DNA of 64,000 bases from the NCBI GenBank assembly GCA_012798435.1, contig JAAZNF010000084.1, positions 1-64,000 on the forward strand, in the 5' to 3' direction. Positions 4,956 to 10,505 of the stretch are shown here, in pieces. The notes below the pieces were generated by a model, which had not been told where the DNA came from, made no database searches, and saw only the letters and a list, made by a program, of their open reading frames with translations. Positions within the stretch are counted from its first letter, which is position 1. Every line of letters starts with the position of its first letter. Position numbers and translations under genes: made by a program. Source of the stretch: Myxococcales bacterium. Its GTDB lineage: Bacteria > Myxococcota > B64-G9.

Positions 4956-5636
4956 TCAGTCTGAGGCCGCGGGGCGGAGGCGGGCGCACACCGTCCGAGC
5001 GGGAGGTAGCGGCTCGCGGGCGAGGCATTGGCGCGACGGGGGATCGCCGACCACCAGGCACACCAGGGCCTCATCGTCGTCGTCGAGGGAAAACGCCCCC
5101 GGCAGGGCCACCTCGTTGCCGCAGGCGATCCGCTGGAGCGGAAGAGGGAAGAACACCTCGCCTCCCTGGAGGACCACCAGTTCGACTGCGGGCTCGCCGG
5201 GCGGCGGGCACGTGAGCAGGGCCTTGAAGCGATCGCCGGGGGCGAAGGTCTCGGGATTTTGCTGGGTCGCCCCGGCGCGTTCCCGCACAAGGACCACGGC
5301 CAACTCTCCGCCCTTCACGGCGATGCGTGATGGTAGCATTCCGTGGCCTCCCGGCGCGGCCGGCCACAGCAGCAAGACGAGCAGCACCGAGGCCAGCACC
5401 GCCGCCGCGGCCCCGAGCCACACGAAGCCGCGCCGCGCGGGCGCCCTGGTGGGGGAGGGGAGCGGGCGCAGGACGGGCGCGGGCTCGGCCCGGATGCTCT
5501 CCAGGCAGGCCTGACAGGCGGGGCAACGCTCCAGGTGATCGCGGACCCGAGAGCGCTCCTCGGCCGGCAGTTCGCCGAGGGCGAAGCGCTCCAGGCGGAG
5601 CCAGGACACGGGTTCGCCGATACATTCGAGTTTCAT
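4956..5636 (-). CDS. Anti-sigma factor-like membrane protein with zinc-finger N-terminus
   Basis: A 226-residue protein. The N-terminal 45 residues carry the zf-HC2-like pattern found in ECF anti-sigma factors: hydrophobic heptads, then H-x3-C-x2-C (HLERCPACQAC). A basic linker leads to one transmembrane helix at about residues 73-93. The remaining 130 residues would be periplasmic; they hold paired cysteines but no domain I recognise (the part around GDRFKALLTCPP resembles the DUF4384-like module seen with these systems). Its ATG overlaps the TGA of the sigma-factor gene (ATGA), the classic order for a cognate sigma/anti-sigma pair. It is the last gene of the caspase operon, so its periplasmic domain could sense a state of the envelope produced by those exported partners. 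Confidence 0.8.
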   Translation of the reverse strand: MKLECIGEPVSWLRLERFALGELPAEERSRVRDHLERCPACQACLESIRAEPAPVLRPLPSPTRAPARRGFVWLGAAAAVLASVLLVLLLWPAAPGGHGMLPSRIAVKGGELAVVLVRERAGATQQNPETFAPGDRFKALLTCPPPGEPAVELVVLQGGEVFFPLPLQRIACGNEVALPGAFSLDDDDEALVCLVVGDPPSRQCLAREPLPPARTVCARLRPAASD

Positions 5637-6106
5637 GGCCTCACCCCGCTCGTGGCGGCCAGCGCCCGCACCGTATCGTGGATGCGGGCCAGGCGCTTGG
5701 TCACGGTCTTGCGGCTGAGCGCGAGGGTGTGCGCGATCTCCTCCTGCGTCAGATCGTCGAAGTAGCGGCACACCAGGACCTCCAGATCTCGCTGTCCCAG
5801 GCGCTCGGCGAGCTTCTCCAATAGATCCAGTCCGATCACCATCTCATCGCAGCGGGTGCGCACCGGGCCGCGCAGGCTCTCGTCGTACCGCTCGCGCAGG
5901 CGCGCCCGGGTTCCCCGGTCGCGCAGCAGGCTCGCGCAGCGGTTGGTCACCGCGCGGTACAGGTACGGCAGGTCCGCCTCGGTCACGCCGCGCGACAAGA
6001 GCTCGACGAATATCCCGTGCACGACGTCCTCCGCGTCCTGGCGGTTGCCCAGGATGCGCTGCCCTTTCCGCAGCAGCGCCGGGGCGTATCGGTGGTAGAT
6101 CTCCAC
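5633..6106 (-). CDS. ECF-like RNA polymerase sigma factor
   Basis: A short sigma factor of 157 residues. Region 2 contains NRQDAEDVVHGIFVELL (2.1-2.2, core binding) followed by YRAVTNRCASLLRD (2.4-like). Region 4 has LGQRDLEVLVCRYFDDLT and the helix-turn-helix TQEEIAHTLALSRKTVTKRL. There is no region 3, as in ECF factors. GTG at 6106 is the likely start because a GGAGG-rich site precedes it directly and the upstream gene ends 11 bases before. The longer open frame upstream is a shadow of the cysteine-rich gene. The anti-sigma gene follows with a four-base overlap. Its target promoter could be that of its own operon (upstream of 8930), which is usual for ECF factors but not proven here. Confidence 0.85.
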   Translation of the reverse strand: MEIYHRYAPALLRKGQRILGNRQDAEDVVHGIFVELLSRGVTEADLPYLYRAVTNRCASLLRDRGTRARLRERYDESLRGPVRTRCDEMVIGLDLLEKLAERLGQRDLEVLVCRYFDDLTQEEIAHTLALSRKTVTKRLARIHDTVRALAATSGVRP

Positions 6107-6117
6107 GCCCCCTCCGG

Positions 6118-7242
6118 CTACTGGCAGCGCCCGTCGGACACACCGAGCGCGACGCAGTCGCCGCTGGCGTGGTCGGGCGGGCAGTCGCCGTCGCTCTGGC
6201 AGGAGCGCCCGTCGTACCAGCACAGGGTGAGCGCGCCGGACCCTACGCAGCGCCGGCTCTGGCAGTCCTCGTCGCGCAGGCAGGCGGCGCCGCTCTCGGC
6301 GCGTCCCTGGCCGGGGGCGCACTGCCACGGCCGGGGCTGCCACAGCCGATTTTGTTCGGCGGGCCATTCGGCCAGGGTGCAGAGGAGGCCGTCCGGGCAG
6401 GCGACTATATCGCAGCAGCTCGAGCACACCTCGCTACAGCACACCCCGCTTGCGCACTCGCGGTCCTGTAGGCAGCGTTCGCCCAAGTGGCGCGAACCCT
6501 CCGGGACGCAGGCGGCGTGCAGGCCGAATTCGTCGGGCACAAGGCCGCAGGTATCGCCGGAGCAGTCCGCGTCCTGCCGGCACTCCCCGCACGTCAGGTA
6601 CTGATCGTCGGCGTTGCGGTAGGGAAAGCCGCTCGGGCCGCACACCCCGGAGGCACACTGGCCGTCGCGCTCGCAGGTGGCGCCCAGCGGCCGCCCTTCG
6701 AGGGGCAGCGGCGCGCCGGAGCAATCGCCGGGGTCGCTGATGCGCAGGTGGGCCAGGCGGGCCCGCCCCGGGCCGGTCTTTCGCAGCGAGAAGCGGACCT
6801 TGGTATACCAGGTCGGCGTCCGGACCGTGTACATCACCGCGGCCCAGTCGTTGCCCGGCACCGGGGCGAAGTACTCCTCGGTGCCGTCGTCCTCGAAGTC
6901 CATGCCGAGCACCACCGAGGCGTCGCCCTCGACCTCGGCCAGGGTCTCGAAGCGAAAGCAGCGCACCCGCTCGCCGATGAGCTGCGAGATGCCGGCCGGG
7001 TCGCCCACAAGCTCCACCCCGTAGTCTCGCTCGTGCCAGGTGGGCACGCGCCGGACCGCCCCGGCGTCGGTGCGCCAGGCGCACAGGGACTCGCCGCACC
7101 ACAGGTCGAAGCTGGGATCCTGGTTGAGCGAGGGCTCGCAGCTCCCCCAGCCGCCGGCGACCAGCCCGCAGGCCATCAGGGCTGTGGCGACAGCGAGCGG
7201 GCGCGGCAACGGGCTCTGTCTCGATATGCGATTCGCTTTCAT
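6118..7242 (-). CDS. Exported cysteine-rich repeat protein (Dickkopf/EB-like modules)
   Basis: A 374-residue protein with a signal peptide ending near GGWGSC; that Cys could be lipidated, but the lipobox is not canonical. Residues about 40-180 form a beta-rich region without a recognised family. The C-terminal half contains repeated cysteine modules of the type C-x(n)-C-x3-C, each with a phrase like CERDGQCASGVC, CRQDADCSGDTC, CLQDRECASGVC or CLRDEDCQSRRC. Such disulfide-rich modules are frequent in surface proteins of myxobacteria and relatives. The second ATG (7242) is preferred because AGGAG lies seven bases before it; the first ATG at 7248 would be too close. It lies 32 bases after the caspase gene and 11 before the sigma gene, so all four belong to one transcript. 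Confidence 0.75.
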   Translation of the reverse strand: MKANRISRQSPLPRPLAVATALMACGLVAGGWGSCEPSLNQDPSFDLWCGESLCAWRTDAGAVRRVPTWHERDYGVELVGDPAGISQLIGERVRCFRFETLAEVEGDASVVLGMDFEDDGTEEYFAPVPGNDWAAVMYTVRTPTWYTKVRFSLRKTGPGRARLAHLRISDPGDCSGAPLPLEGRPLGATCERDGQCASGVCGPSGFPYRNADDQYLTCGECRQDADCSGDTCGLVPDEFGLHAACVPEGSRHLGERCLQDRECASGVCCSEVCSSCCDIVACPDGLLCTLAEWPAEQNRLWQPRPWQCAPGQGRAESGAACLRDEDCQSRRCVGSGALTLCWYDGRSCQSDGDCPPDHASGDCVALGVSDGRCQ

Positions 7243-7274
7243 AAACATTCTCCTCTCATTTTCTTCGGGGGCGG

Positions 7275-8930
7275 TTACAGCGCGCCGCGGATTCCGAGCG
7301 CGAACAAGAGGCCGCCGCTGTCGTGCTCGTCCCCCAGGCGGTTCTCGATGGCCCGGGCGTAGCTGTAGGACACCTGGCCGTAGAAGCCGAAGTGACGCCA
7401 GGGCATGACGAGCAGCCCGGCGGCGCAGCCGAGCTGAAAGCCGGCGTAGGATTCGTCGTCGTCCACCCCGGCCGCCTCGTCGCGGTAGTGGGTGAAGCCC
7501 AGTGCGAGCCCCCCACCCGCCTCCAGGTACGGCACCAGCCACCCCGAGAACAGCGGGAGCTGCCCGCGCGCGAACAGCATCAGGCCATAGCTCTCCCAGG
7601 AGAATTCCTGCTGCCGGGAGTCGCTGCCGCTGGAGACGTCGCGCTGGTAGACGTTCTGTTCGAGCAGGGAAAAGCGCAGCCCCAGCCCGAGGTAGCGGTT
7701 GCCGGTCCAGGTGAGGCTGGCCTGCACCACCGGGCTGAACAAGAACATGCCCTCGTCGAAACCGAAGTCGGTCAGGCGCCGGTTGTAACCGTCCGAGCGG
7801 CCGAACAGCACCCCGGCCCCCAGCTCGAAGCCGAAGACGTTGACCGCCTCCTCGGCCGCGCCCTTGGCCGTGACCTCCTCGACGGGCACGGTCCGGCAGC
7901 CGGCGCCGTCGAACGTCAGGGTGCTGTCGGGGTGCAGGGAAAGCTCGCAGCGAAAAAGCCCTCCGTCCCGGCGCAGCAGCAGGCTGAAGTCGCCGGCCGG
8001 CAGGGCCAGCGCGAACTCCTGGCCGGCCGCCTTGGAGATCTCGGCCACGATCACCCCGGCCGGCTGGCGCTCGACCAGGATGTCGCCGGCCAGGCTTTCG
8101 GGAAAACGGACCTGCGAGCCGGAGCGCTCGGGCTCGGTGAGGACCAGCTCGCCCCGGCCCTTGATGTCGTTCTCCAGCGTGACGTGCTGGCGGCCCAGCG
8201 CGGTTTCCGCGGTCCGGGCCAGGGTGCGGTGGTAGGCGTAGCGGTAGGCCTCGGAGAGCGTGACCCGCCCGTCGCGGTCCACGTCGGCCGCGCCGCGCAG
8301 CCCCACCGTGAGGTGGTGGGTGAAGAACGACGATGCCAGCGCCTCCGACTCCTGGCTGAGCTCGCTGCCGGTGCTGCTGGCCATGATGGCCACGCCGCTC
8401 GAGCCCAGGCCCTGGACCGAGTTGAACGAGAAGTCGGCCGCGGGCGAGGCCCCCTTCAGGCGCGACACCGCCCCCGACTGGCAGGCGTCGAGCACCACCA
8501 GGGTCACCTCGGCCGGTAGGGCGAGAAGCTCGCGACGCAGCTCGTCGAGGGGGATCTCCTCCGGGCCCAGGTTGAGGCTCCCGGCGCGGGCGTGGCCGGA
8601 GTAGTAGAACACGAACACCGCCGGGTTGCCCCGCGCCCGCTCCTGCGAAAGCCGCCGGGCCACGTCCGAAAGGGCCCCGAGCAGCTTGGCGCGGTCGGGG
8701 TTGTGCAGCGTTTGCACCTCGTTCGCCGCAAAGCCGCCGAGTTCCTGGAGCACCTCGGCGACCCGCAGGGCGTCGGCGAAGGCGTAGCGCAGCTCCTCCT
8801 GGCCCGGCCCGGGCCGGTTGCTCCCCACCAGGAGCGCGAGTTTGAGCGGCGATGCGGGCGGGGATTCCGGCGCGGCCGGGGCGAATCCGGCCGGGAGCAA
8901 CAGCAAGGCGATGGCGAGCAGGCGCGTCAT
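7275..8930 (-). CDS. Exported caspase-like peptidase (C14) with EF-hand-like loop and probable C-terminal beta-barrel
   Basis: A 551-residue protein with a signal peptide (about 1-20). The caspase fold follows: LALLVGSNRP at 31-40, the catalytic His in YYSGHARAG (His113) and the catalytic Cys in VVLDACQSGA (Cys150). Around residue 205 a DVDRDGRVTLSEAY stretch matches a calcium-binding EF-hand loop, common in bacterial caspase homologues. Residues about 370-551 are made of alternating hydrophobic/aromatic strands (for example LGLGLRFSLLEQ and GFQLGCAAGLLV) and end in LGIRGAL, which looks like an outer-membrane or transport-type beta-barrel. The ATG at 8930 has GAGGAGA six bases upstream. It is the first gene of a four-gene operon with a cysteine-rich protein, a sigma factor and an anti-sigma factor. 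The substrate is unknown. Confidence 0.82.
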   Translation of the reverse strand: MTRLLAIALLLLPAGFAPAAPESPPASPLKLALLVGSNRPGPGQEELRYAFADALRVAEVLQELGGFAANEVQTLHNPDRAKLLGALSDVARRLSQERARGNPAVFVFYYSGHARAGSLNLGPEEIPLDELRRELLALPAEVTLVVLDACQSGAVSRLKGASPAADFSFNSVQGLGSSGVAIMASSTGSELSQESEALASSFFTHHLTVGLRGAADVDRDGRVTLSEAYRYAYHRTLARTAETALGRQHVTLENDIKGRGELVLTEPERSGSQVRFPESLAGDILVERQPAGVIVAEISKAAGQEFALALPAGDFSLLLRRDGGLFRCELSLHPDSTLTFDGAGCRTVPVEEVTAKGAAEEAVNVFGFELGAGVLFGRSDGYNRRLTDFGFDEGMFLFSPVVQASLTWTGNRYLGLGLRFSLLEQNVYQRDVSSGSDSRQQEFSWESYGLMLFARGQLPLFSGWLVPYLEAGGGLALGFTHYRDEAAGVDDDESYAGFQLGCAAGLLVMPWRHFGFYGQVSYSYARAIENRLGDEHDSGGLLFALGIRGAL

Positions 8931-9416
8931 GATCGTCTCCTCGGTTATATCCATCATCTATTGTGCTTAACGCGCAAGTGGCGTTTGTTGTCACCCCCCC
9001 CGAAAAAAGTTCGAAGCAACCCTTGCAAGGCGTAACTTATCGCAGCCAGGAGCCTTGTCCTCTTGTACCCCGAGAGAAAACATTCCCGAGAAAAGCGCTA
9101 ATAATAGAGGGGATAATGCAGAAGCGAAGAATAGATGAAAACGAAAGAATCGCTGGCAGGGAACATTGCCTGGATTCTGAGCTTTTCCCCTACCAGTTTT
9201 TTTGCTCCAAACGCCATGCCTGGCGGTCGCGGTAGGATGGCTGTTCCGGCGGCCTGCACCCCGCGCGGAAAACTCCTTGACACGTCTTTTTCGTGGGCGA
9301 TATAGTCCGGCCCGCGGTTTGCCTCACCGACTGTCGGAGCGTCCGGCCTTCGACGGTTGACATCGTGATGCGGTCGGCCCGATCGCGCCGCCGCCCAGGG
9401 ACGCCCGGAGGCTTGC
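8931..9416. other. Divergent intergenic region between the caspase operon and mglBA
   Basis: 486 bases with no convincing gene. It is clearly more AT-rich than its surroundings between about 9085 and 9210 (A-runs, TAATAATAG, a T-run). A run of eight C (8994-9001) followed by A-runs lies about 65 bases before the caspase start. It should hold the promoter of the minus-strand caspase operon, but I cannot pick out one set of boxes; TATAAC on the minus strand near 8950 is a possible -10. The mglB promoter is listed separately. The 104-base leader before mglB shows no obvious riboswitch. Confidence 0.5.
9277..9306 (+). promoter_or_regulatory. Probable sigma-70 promoter of mglBA
   Basis: TTGACA at 9277-9282 (perfect -35) and TATAGT at 9301-9306 with an 18-base spacer. 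It would give a leader of about 105 bases before mglB. Confidence 0.65.
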
Positions 9417-9899
9417 ATGGTCAGTCCTCAGATGGTCATGTACGAGCGGGAATTCAATCAGATCACCGCCGTGTGTGATCGTTTGTGCCGTGAGTCCAAT
9501 GCCAAGGTCGTTTTCCTGGTGGACAAGAACGGCCAGCTCATCGCCAGCGCCGGCGCCTCCGAGAACATGGACACCACCTCGCTGGCCTCTCTCACCGCCG
9601 GCAACGTGGCGGCCATCGGGGGCCTGGCCAAGTTGATCGGCGAGAAAGAGTTCTCCTCCCTGTTCCTGGAGGGAGAGCACGACCACATCCACAAGTCGAT
9701 CGTTGGCGGCCGGGTGATCCTGGTGGTGATCTTCGACAATCGCTCGTCGCAGGGCCTGGTGCGCCTGCGGGTGAAGAAGGCGTCGGTGGAGCTTTCCACC
9801 ATCTTCGACGCCCTCATGCGCAAGATCGAGGAGCCGGGCGCTGGCTCCCCGTTCGCCGAGATCACCGACGAGGACATCGACAACCTCTTCAACGACTGA
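9417..9899 (+). CDS. mglB: MglB, Roadblock/LC7 GTPase-activating protein of the polarity switch
   Basis: A 160-residue Roadblock/LC7 protein whose sequence closely follows Myxococcus xanthus MglB as I remember it: VMYE..F..I.AVCDRL, NAKVVFLVDKNGQLI.SAG, MDTTSLASLTAGNVAA, the IFDNR strand and the tail SPFAEITDEDIDNLF. In the known family MglB forms a dimer that activates GTP hydrolysis by MglA at the lagging pole and restricts MglA-GTP to the leading pole; its C-terminal helix, preserved here, contacts MglA. The start ATG has GGAGG five bases upstream. It lies 18 bases before mglA in the usual mglB-mglA order. A consensus promoter is upstream. Confidence 0.95.
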   Translation: MVSPQMVMYEREFNQITAVCDRLCRESNAKVVFLVDKNGQLIASAGASENMDTTSLASLTAGNVAAIGGLAKLIGEKEFSSLFLEGEHDHIHKSIVGGRVILVVIFDNRSSQGLVRLRVKKASVELSTIFDALMRKIEEPGAGSPFAEITDEDIDNLFND

Positions 9900-9917: not shown

Positions 9918-10505
9918 ATGTCCTTCATCAATTACTCGTCCCGCGAGATCAACTGCAAGATCGTCTACTACGGTCCTGGTCTGTGCGGAAAGACCACCAA
10001 CCTCCAGTACATCTACGCCAAGACCAACCCCGAGGCCAAGGGCAAGATGATCTCGCTGGCCACCGAGACCGAGCGCACCCTGTTCTTCGACTTTCTGCCG
10101 TTGTCGCTGGGCGAGATCCGAGGCTTCCGCACCCGCTTCCACCTCTACACCGTTCCCGGACAGGTGTTCTACGACGCCAGCCGCAAGCTCATCCTGAAGG
10201 GCGTGGACGGGGTGGTGTTCGTGGCCGACTCCCAGGTCGAGCGCATGGAGGCCAACCTGGAGAGCATGGAGAACCTGCGTGTCAACCTGGCCGAGCAGGG
10301 CTACGACCTCAAGACTGTGCCCTACGTCATCCAGTACAACAAGCGCGACCTGCCCAACGCCGCTCCCATCGAGGAGCTGCACCGCCTGCTGAACCCGGAC
10401 AACGTGCCGGAGTTCCAGGCCATCGCCGCCACCGGCTGGGGGGTGTTCGACACCCTCAAGGCCATCGCCAAGCTGGTGCTGCAGGAGCTGCGCAAGGGTC
10501 GCTAG
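9918..10505 (+). CDS. mglA: MglA, small Ras-like GTPase controlling cell polarity and motility
   Basis: 195 residues, the same length as Myxococcus xanthus MglA. The G1 P-loop is GPGLCGKTT (residues 19-27), Thr54 is in the switch I region, the G3 motif is TVPGQ (78-82) with Thr in place of the usual Asp, as is typical for MglA, and G4 is NKRD (141-144). All key positions, including Gln82, carry the same numbers as in the characterised protein. In the family MglA-GTP recruits the gliding machinery and type IV pili at the leading pole. It is co-transcribed with mglB and is followed, after a 321-base spacer, by the Agl/Glt-like envelope genes. Confidence 0.96.

Follow-up and report, generated by a model that had tools for sequence, protein, structure and literature searches.

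We describe a four-gene operon from a Myxococcales bacterium (GCA_012798435.1) that, on balance, we believe encodes a self-amplifying circuit from the cell envelope to gene expression: an exported caspase would free itself and cut an anti-sigma factor, and the released sigma factor would boost its own operon. The operon lies at positions 4956–8930 on the minus strand of a 64,000-nucleotide stretch of contig JAAZNF010000084.1 (hereafter called the window). Its four genes, all intact, encode in order a caspase-like protease with a predicted C-terminal barrel, a Cys-rich exported protein, an extracytoplasmic function (ECF) sigma factor and a transmembrane anti-sigma factor. Sequence comparison across about 150 related loci points to a shared Lys-Gly site at which the caspase may cut both itself and the anti-sigma factor.

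The four minus-strand genes are closely packed, as a preliminary description made from the DNA letters had stated. The caspase gene (7275–8930, 551 residues) begins with an ATG at 8930, the operon start given in that description, and has GAGGAG upstream. The gene for the Cys-rich protein (6118–7242, 374 residues) starts 32 nucleotides past the caspase stop codon, and the sigma factor gene (5633–6106, 157 residues, GTG start) follows 11 nucleotides past the next one. The anti-sigma factor gene (4956–5636, 226 residues) overlaps the sigma factor gene in an ATGA.

A Lys-Gly motif common to the protease and the anti-sigma factor

The predicted cleavage site in the anti-sigma factor is Lys108-Gly109 (5310–5315, minus strand), about 14–20 residues outside the membrane. 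No columns of the anti-sigma family are more conserved than this Lys and Gly (K in 169 and G in 172 of 174 sequences), which lie a median of about 14 residues outside the membrane helix. A matching R-x-K-G is found in the caspase, ten residues past the catalytic cysteine. Here Lys159-Gly160 (8451–8456, minus strand; SRLK/GASP, where the slash marks the predicted cut) forms a putative autoprocessing site in the intersubunit loop, with K in 146 and G in 150 of 151 loci. Across 89 non-redundant loci (caspase identity below 60%), R, K and G occur at frequencies of 0.64, 0.94 and 0.98 in the anti-sigma site and 0.70, 0.94 and 0.99 in the caspase loop. We read the R-x-K-G common to the two proteins as a shared protease recognition site. 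That K-G is a quirk of the core family alone was ruled out by its presence in Spirochaetes and other Myxococcota.

A further candidate site in the caspase, Lys356-Gly357 (7860–7865, minus strand), is located in the linker before the barrel, where cleavage is predicted to release the protease. In 134 of 151 loci, and in 77 of the 81 non-redundant ones, the linker carries a conserved [KR]G amid hypervariable flanks (flanking columns at most 0.44). Counted at any position, [KR]G is present in 79 of 89 linkers, where shuffled sequences average 24. In the AlphaFold2 (AF2) model, the loop site falls within segment 156–174 and the linker site within segment 353–360. Both have confidence scores (pLDDT) below 50, and the two site regions are the only long stretches of the model with such values.

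The predicted specificity of the protease agrees with these sites. The S1 pocket is acidic and of the C14B (metacaspase/paracaspase) type, with Asp148 two residues before the catalytic Cys150 and Ser111 two residues before His113. These residues match Asp137 and Ser84 in the Lys-binding pocket of AtMC4 (PMC7206013), and on this basis we predict that the window caspase prefers Lys or Arg.

Covariation of the two sites

Residue P3 of the motif (two residues before the Lys, scored as Arg or not) covaries between the caspase loop and the anti-sigma site, with a Fisher p of 5e-6 across 43 loci that are less than 50% identical and carry K/R-G at both sites. In a column test, the anti-sigma P3 ranks first of 205 columns when loci are less than 50% identical (48 loci), and first of 209 at less than 45%. 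In the reverse test the caspase-loop P3 ties for first of 314 (less than 50%) and ranks first of 308 (less than 45%). The caspase column tied with P3 lies beside QES, a conserved small-subunit motif (E196 in the window), and is plausibly part of substrate recognition. K-to-R changes occur jointly in L090 and L091, two paralogues, and to some extent in L058. We set aside covariation of K/R identity among the three sites because R occurs too seldom (Fisher p 0.04 for anti-sigma factor versus loop). The shared and covarying R-x-K-G lends specific sequence support to an idea already raised in the preliminary description, that the caspase may control release of the sigma factor.

A caspase beside nearly every anti-sigma factor of this type

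A scan of GTDB genomes returned 80 related loci. The caspase, Cys-rich, sigma and anti-sigma genes occur in identical order and strand in about 22 other metagenome-assembled genomes of Myxococcota (L007–L016, L018, L019, L021–L027 and L030, with L017 and L020 truncated by contig ends), and this search for the four-gene order bears out the linkage that had been proposed. L028 and L029 are divergent or partial versions of the locus. The loci in which the caspase gene comes first group in a single clade of 26 tips with full support; outside it the order is sigma, anti-sigma, caspase, an arrangement present in Myxococcota, in Spirochaetes including Treponema, and in Chitinivibrionales. A same-strand caspase adjoins 151 of the 174 sampled anti-sigma factors. 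The genome of the window has six caspases, each paired with one of the six full-length anti-sigma factors of the family. Other anti-sigma matches in this genome cover mainly the N-terminal zinc finger and membrane part, and the fetched flanks of these partial matches contained no caspase match.

Linkage by itself is no proof of function, and the tail of the Cys-rich protein is variable, as would suit genes that are merely co-inherited neighbours with no functional link. Yet the linkage holds in two gene orders across Myxococcota, Spirochaetes and Chitinivibrionales, which already makes co-inheritance without a functional link unlikely by linkage statistics, and the genes share a translational overlap and a promoter. 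We give this explanation almost no weight.

A putative promoter for the operon

The core relatives carry GGTTCCCA-N13-GCGTGTCA upstream of the caspase gene, with a spacer of exactly 13 nucleotides in 23 of 25 cases. A strict consensus search among these relatives usually finds one site per genome, and the reversed-pattern control finds zero. Because most genomes have a single strict site, the caspase operon is likely the main target of this sigma factor, which would close a positive loop. In the window, the putative ECF promoter GGGTGACA-N13-GCGCGTTA (8968–8996, minus strand) stands 37 nucleotides before the caspase ATG. It is a divergent copy, and in this exact form it is found nowhere else in the genome.

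Some relatives have additional sites. A second strict copy in L263 (G187) precedes by 7 nucleotides the gene for a predicted exported lipoprotein-like protein of 267 residues, a possible further target of the sigma factor, and L262 (G188) has another extra site with a shorter spacer. The Treponema loci L061–L073 have a different ECF-like promoter before the sigma gene, GTGACA-N17/18-TGTCT, whose −35 element resembles the GTGACA of the window.

Points against cleavage, and the caspase as a possible output

Several observations weigh against the proposed circuit. The promoter in the window fits the motif weakly (12 of 16 positions, against a null maximum of 13). At a 60% identity threshold the P3 ranks drop to 3 of 207 and 7 of 319, and the column-rank test controls for ancestry only in part. 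The K/R covariation is based on very few loci, and K/R in the linker tracks neither the loop nor the anti-sigma site. AF2 places Lys108-Gly109 of the anti-sigma factor on the border of a folded domain, flanked by two short strands of high confidence, and not in a disordered linker. Finally, a sigma/anti-sigma pair can be maintained where no caspase is encoded nearby, and the anti-sigma K-G is retained in such caspase-less Myxococcota loci (L148, L150, L152–L154, L157–L159, L164 and L166). The motif may therefore be structural, or it may be cut in trans by other caspases. We considered these caspase-less anti-sigma factors as a clean negative control and dropped them: with K-G kept, they do not separate cleavage from a structural role.

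In these loci, among them members of a Myxococcus-like clade, and in L240, L241 and L243, the gene past the anti-sigma gene encodes a signal peptide followed by the last ∼150 residues of the relatives' caspase. The protease part is thus missing, while the C-terminal part and the K-G are kept.

Some of these observations speak for another arrangement, in which the caspase is an output only. The sigma/anti-sigma pair would sense envelope stress by other means, the caspase would act on other envelope or foreign proteins, and K-G would be a structural turn. Such a turn would suit both the structured strand region that AF2 predicts around the anti-sigma K-G and the retention of K-G in caspase-less loci, and the promoter stands in front of the caspase gene as it would for an output. 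However, this arrangement does not account for an identical R-x-K-G in a disordered loop of the caspase, for the top-ranked P3 covariation between two proteins, or for a caspase beside nearly every anti-sigma factor of this type. We consider it unlikely, though a serious competitor.

An exported protease with a predicted outer-membrane barrel

The protease belongs to caspase family C14. It matches Peptidase_C14 (PF00656) with an E-value of 4e-12 (46.7 bits against a cut-off of 21.4), it has a His/Cys dyad and a caspase fold, and in Foldseek its N-terminal part resembles MALT1, metacaspases and caspase-8. Against the caspase_w_EACC1 family (NF047832) it scores 64.9 bits, below the curated cut-off of 140. 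As had been proposed, the protein is predicted to be exported: it starts with the signal peptide MTRLLAIALLLLPAGFAPAA (8871–8930, minus strand), and a hydrophobic export signal is present in every relative examined. The caspase domain spans residues 30–240 (8211–8843, minus strand), with an intact dyad of His113 (8592–8594) and Cys150 (8481–8483). These two residues, Ser111 and Asp148 are all invariant in A1, our alignment of 25 caspase sequences, and each is found in 149–151 of 151 sequences across the wider family; the AF2 model likewise used 25 family members. A middle β-domain of AF2 strands follows (residues 245–352, 7875–8198, minus strand), in which Cys328 and Cys345, invariant in A1, likely form a disulfide.

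Residues 361–551 (7278–7850, minus strand) are predicted to fold as an eight-stranded outer-membrane β-barrel. The AF2 strands (365–377, 399–409, 414–434, 437–457, 465–484, 489–508, 514–529 and 540–550) have pLDDT values mostly of 90–98. The best Foldseek match of the barrel is OmpA (E 9.5e-10), with further matches to Ail, OmpX, NspA and OmpW, and OMP_b-brl (PF13505) matches with an E-value of 1.5e-5 (25.7 bits, just under the curated cut-off of 28.7). A signal peptide combined with a closed antiparallel barrel places the protein with the OmpA-like outer-membrane barrels, and membrane insertion is predicted. The C-terminal barrel suspected in the preliminary description is thereby supported by structure prediction (residues 365–550), and the eight confident strands with OmpA-type matches speak against a soluble C-terminal domain. 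A barrel with an even number of strands should have both termini in the periplasm, so the protease probably faces that compartment.

The preliminary description had also called such a domain unusual for a caspase. The sigma-linked family lends this no support, since a C-terminal domain of the surface or membrane kind looks to be the norm there. C-termini of 130–240 residues with barrel-like strand alternation, well above shuffled sequences, are present in 61 loci of this family, and the part past the linker has a median length of 182 residues. LA_2272 surface repeats (NCBIfam) occur in the C-termini of four of ten wider-family caspases; Pfam gave no barrel match on the C-terminal domains of these ten, and hhalign of the core barrel against other ∼180-residue C-termini reached a probability of 60% only. 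Full-length barrel caspases were found in 7 of 193 sampled Myxococcota genomes. The general caspase part is in 151 of the 193, with matches that mostly end near residue 360, at the linker. One paralogue in the window's own genome, L089 (G000:C37), is an 888-residue caspase whose C-terminal part combines a Cys-rich stretch with a TolB-like propeller, and its K-G sites are altered.

Caspase homologues are often linked to cell death, predatory and social lineages are among these genomes, and a linker [KR]G would free the protease. The operon might on these grounds be a lethal or antagonistic device, in which the sigma-induced caspase kills the cell or harms neighbours or prey, the barrel displays or secretes it, and the linker K-G is a release site at the surface. 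But the conserved unit lacks toxin, immunity or secretion genes, an N-terminal passenger on an eight-strand barrel suggests a periplasmic rather than a surface protease, and a dedicated anti-sigma factor with a matching site points to regulation. In our judgement this role is improbable.

The sigma/anti-sigma pair and the Cys-rich protein

The sigma factor has regions 2 and 4 only within its 157 residues, which identifies it as an ECF sigma factor (TIGR02937, E 4.5e-16, 58.9 bits against a cut-off of 42.9; Sigma70_r4, 1.1e-9; Sigma70_r2, 2.6e-7). The adjoining anti-sigma factor is of the transmembrane ZAS/zf-HC2 type (zf-HC2, E 7.4e-8, 32.8 bits against a cut-off of 22.2 in Pfam). Its HxxxCxxC zinc finger, H34-x3-C38-x2-C41, has H34, C38 and C41 invariant in alignment A2. 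AF2 predicts helices, one transmembrane helix (77–90) and then strands over residues 104–222, a likely periplasmic β-domain, consistent with the sensor pair initially described.

The exported Cys-rich protein consists of a conserved N-terminal β-type domain and Cys-rich repeats, and has no Pfam or NCBIfam match. Its gene is linked to the operon in core relatives, in line with its initial placement there, but the Cys-rich tail is not the conserved part: the versions in L011, L018 and L019 have the N-terminal domain only, and the repeats are a variable add-on. As a further caspase substrate the protein was ruled out, its alignment having no conserved K-G. Locus L019 (2104–4148) has three tandem copies of a short, repeat-less version between the caspase and sigma genes.

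Upstream of the operon, and divergent from it, Pfam identifies a Roadblock/LC7 (MglB-like) gene at 9417–9899 and an Arf/MglA-like small GTPase gene at 9918–10505, both on the plus strand.

Discussion

The analysis shows the genes, their linkage, the predicted barrel fold, the conserved and covarying motifs and the promoter motif. From these we derive a sequence of events in which every cleavage, the signalling direction, the placement of the protease in the periplasm and the use of the promoter by this sigma factor are proposals. The C-terminal barrel would hold the exported caspase at the outer membrane, and its protease part would lie in the periplasm. Some surface or envelope signal would lead the caspase to cut itself at K159/G160 in the loop and K356/G357 in the linker, which would set the protease loose from the outer membrane. 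Once free, the protease would make the site-1 cut in the inner-membrane anti-sigma factor at K108/G109, just outside the membrane. Intramembrane and cytosolic proteases of the cell would degrade the remaining stub and release the ECF sigma factor, which would transcribe the operon from its single dedicated promoter to yield more caspase and Cys-rich exported protein.

The scheme has a counterpart in the DegS/RseP–RseA–RpoE system of E. coli, where periplasmic site-1 cleavage of a transmembrane anti-sigma factor releases an ECF sigma factor. The likeness is in the proposed site-1 cleavage. DegS is a serine PDZ protease of the inner membrane, whereas the window protein is a cysteine caspase of the outer membrane, as predicted, with its own conserved self-processing sites. 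The metacaspases AtMC4 and CgMCA-I and the paracaspase MALT1 resemble it in fold, His/Cys dyad, predicted Lys/Arg specificity and, as proposed for the window protein, self-processing at a loop Lys; unlike them, it is exported and has an OmpA-like C-terminal barrel.

Linkage of sigma factors and caspases is not in itself new. Sigma-70-linked metacaspase operons were noted in 2012 for four of the five M. xanthus metacaspases and in Anaeromyxobacter, Haliangium, Sorangium, Ralstonia and Fibrobacter (Asplund-Samuelsson et al., PMC3501461). Like the window, these operons combine a caspase homologue with a sigma factor. The operon section of that paper concerns linkage alone, without the anti-sigma pairing, barrel, cleavage motif, covariation, promoter or caspase-first order with a Cys-rich gene. 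In Craspase (type III-E CRISPR), the Csx29 caspase cleaves the anti-sigma factor Csx30 and relieves inhibition of CASP-sigma, an ECF factor with autoregulated sites (PMC10028731). Both systems join a caspase-fold protease, an anti-sigma factor and an ECF sigma factor, with cleavage proposed in the window operon. But Craspase is a cytosolic, RNA-guided TPR-CHAT protease acting on soluble Csx30, whereas the window has an exported PF00656 caspase with a signal peptide and a predicted outer-membrane anchor, a transmembrane zinc-finger anti-sigma factor (zf-HC2) and no CRISPR; the open reading frames flanking the operon include no Cas7-11 or Csx30. The operon would resemble Craspase in how it operates and does not belong to it.

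What appears to be new is an exported outer-membrane caspase as the predicted site-1 protease of a membrane anti-sigma factor, with a matching self-processing code. The open literature we searched contained no paper linking exported caspases to anti-sigma cleavage, and a prior mention in the main ECF classification paper is possible. To our knowledge, the roles of bacterial caspases outside phage defence and CRISPR are for the most part unsettled, and a substrate has yet to be assigned to most of those linked to sigma factors. Our analysis names a candidate substrate, the neighbouring anti-sigma factor, together with the predicted scissile bonds and a promoter that could serve as the readout.

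The wider proposal, on which we are evenly divided, is that exported outer-membrane caspases of Myxococcota and Spirochaetes serve ECF sigma pathways as dedicated site-1 proteases: by processing themselves and cutting their partner anti-sigma factors at a common R-x-K/G code, they would convert a surface signal into transcription. If true, caspase control of a sigma factor would be known from two independent systems, Craspase being the first; the new one would be widespread and provide a signal route from the outer membrane to the cytoplasm. It would also give a large class of bacterial caspases a role in regulation rather than in death.

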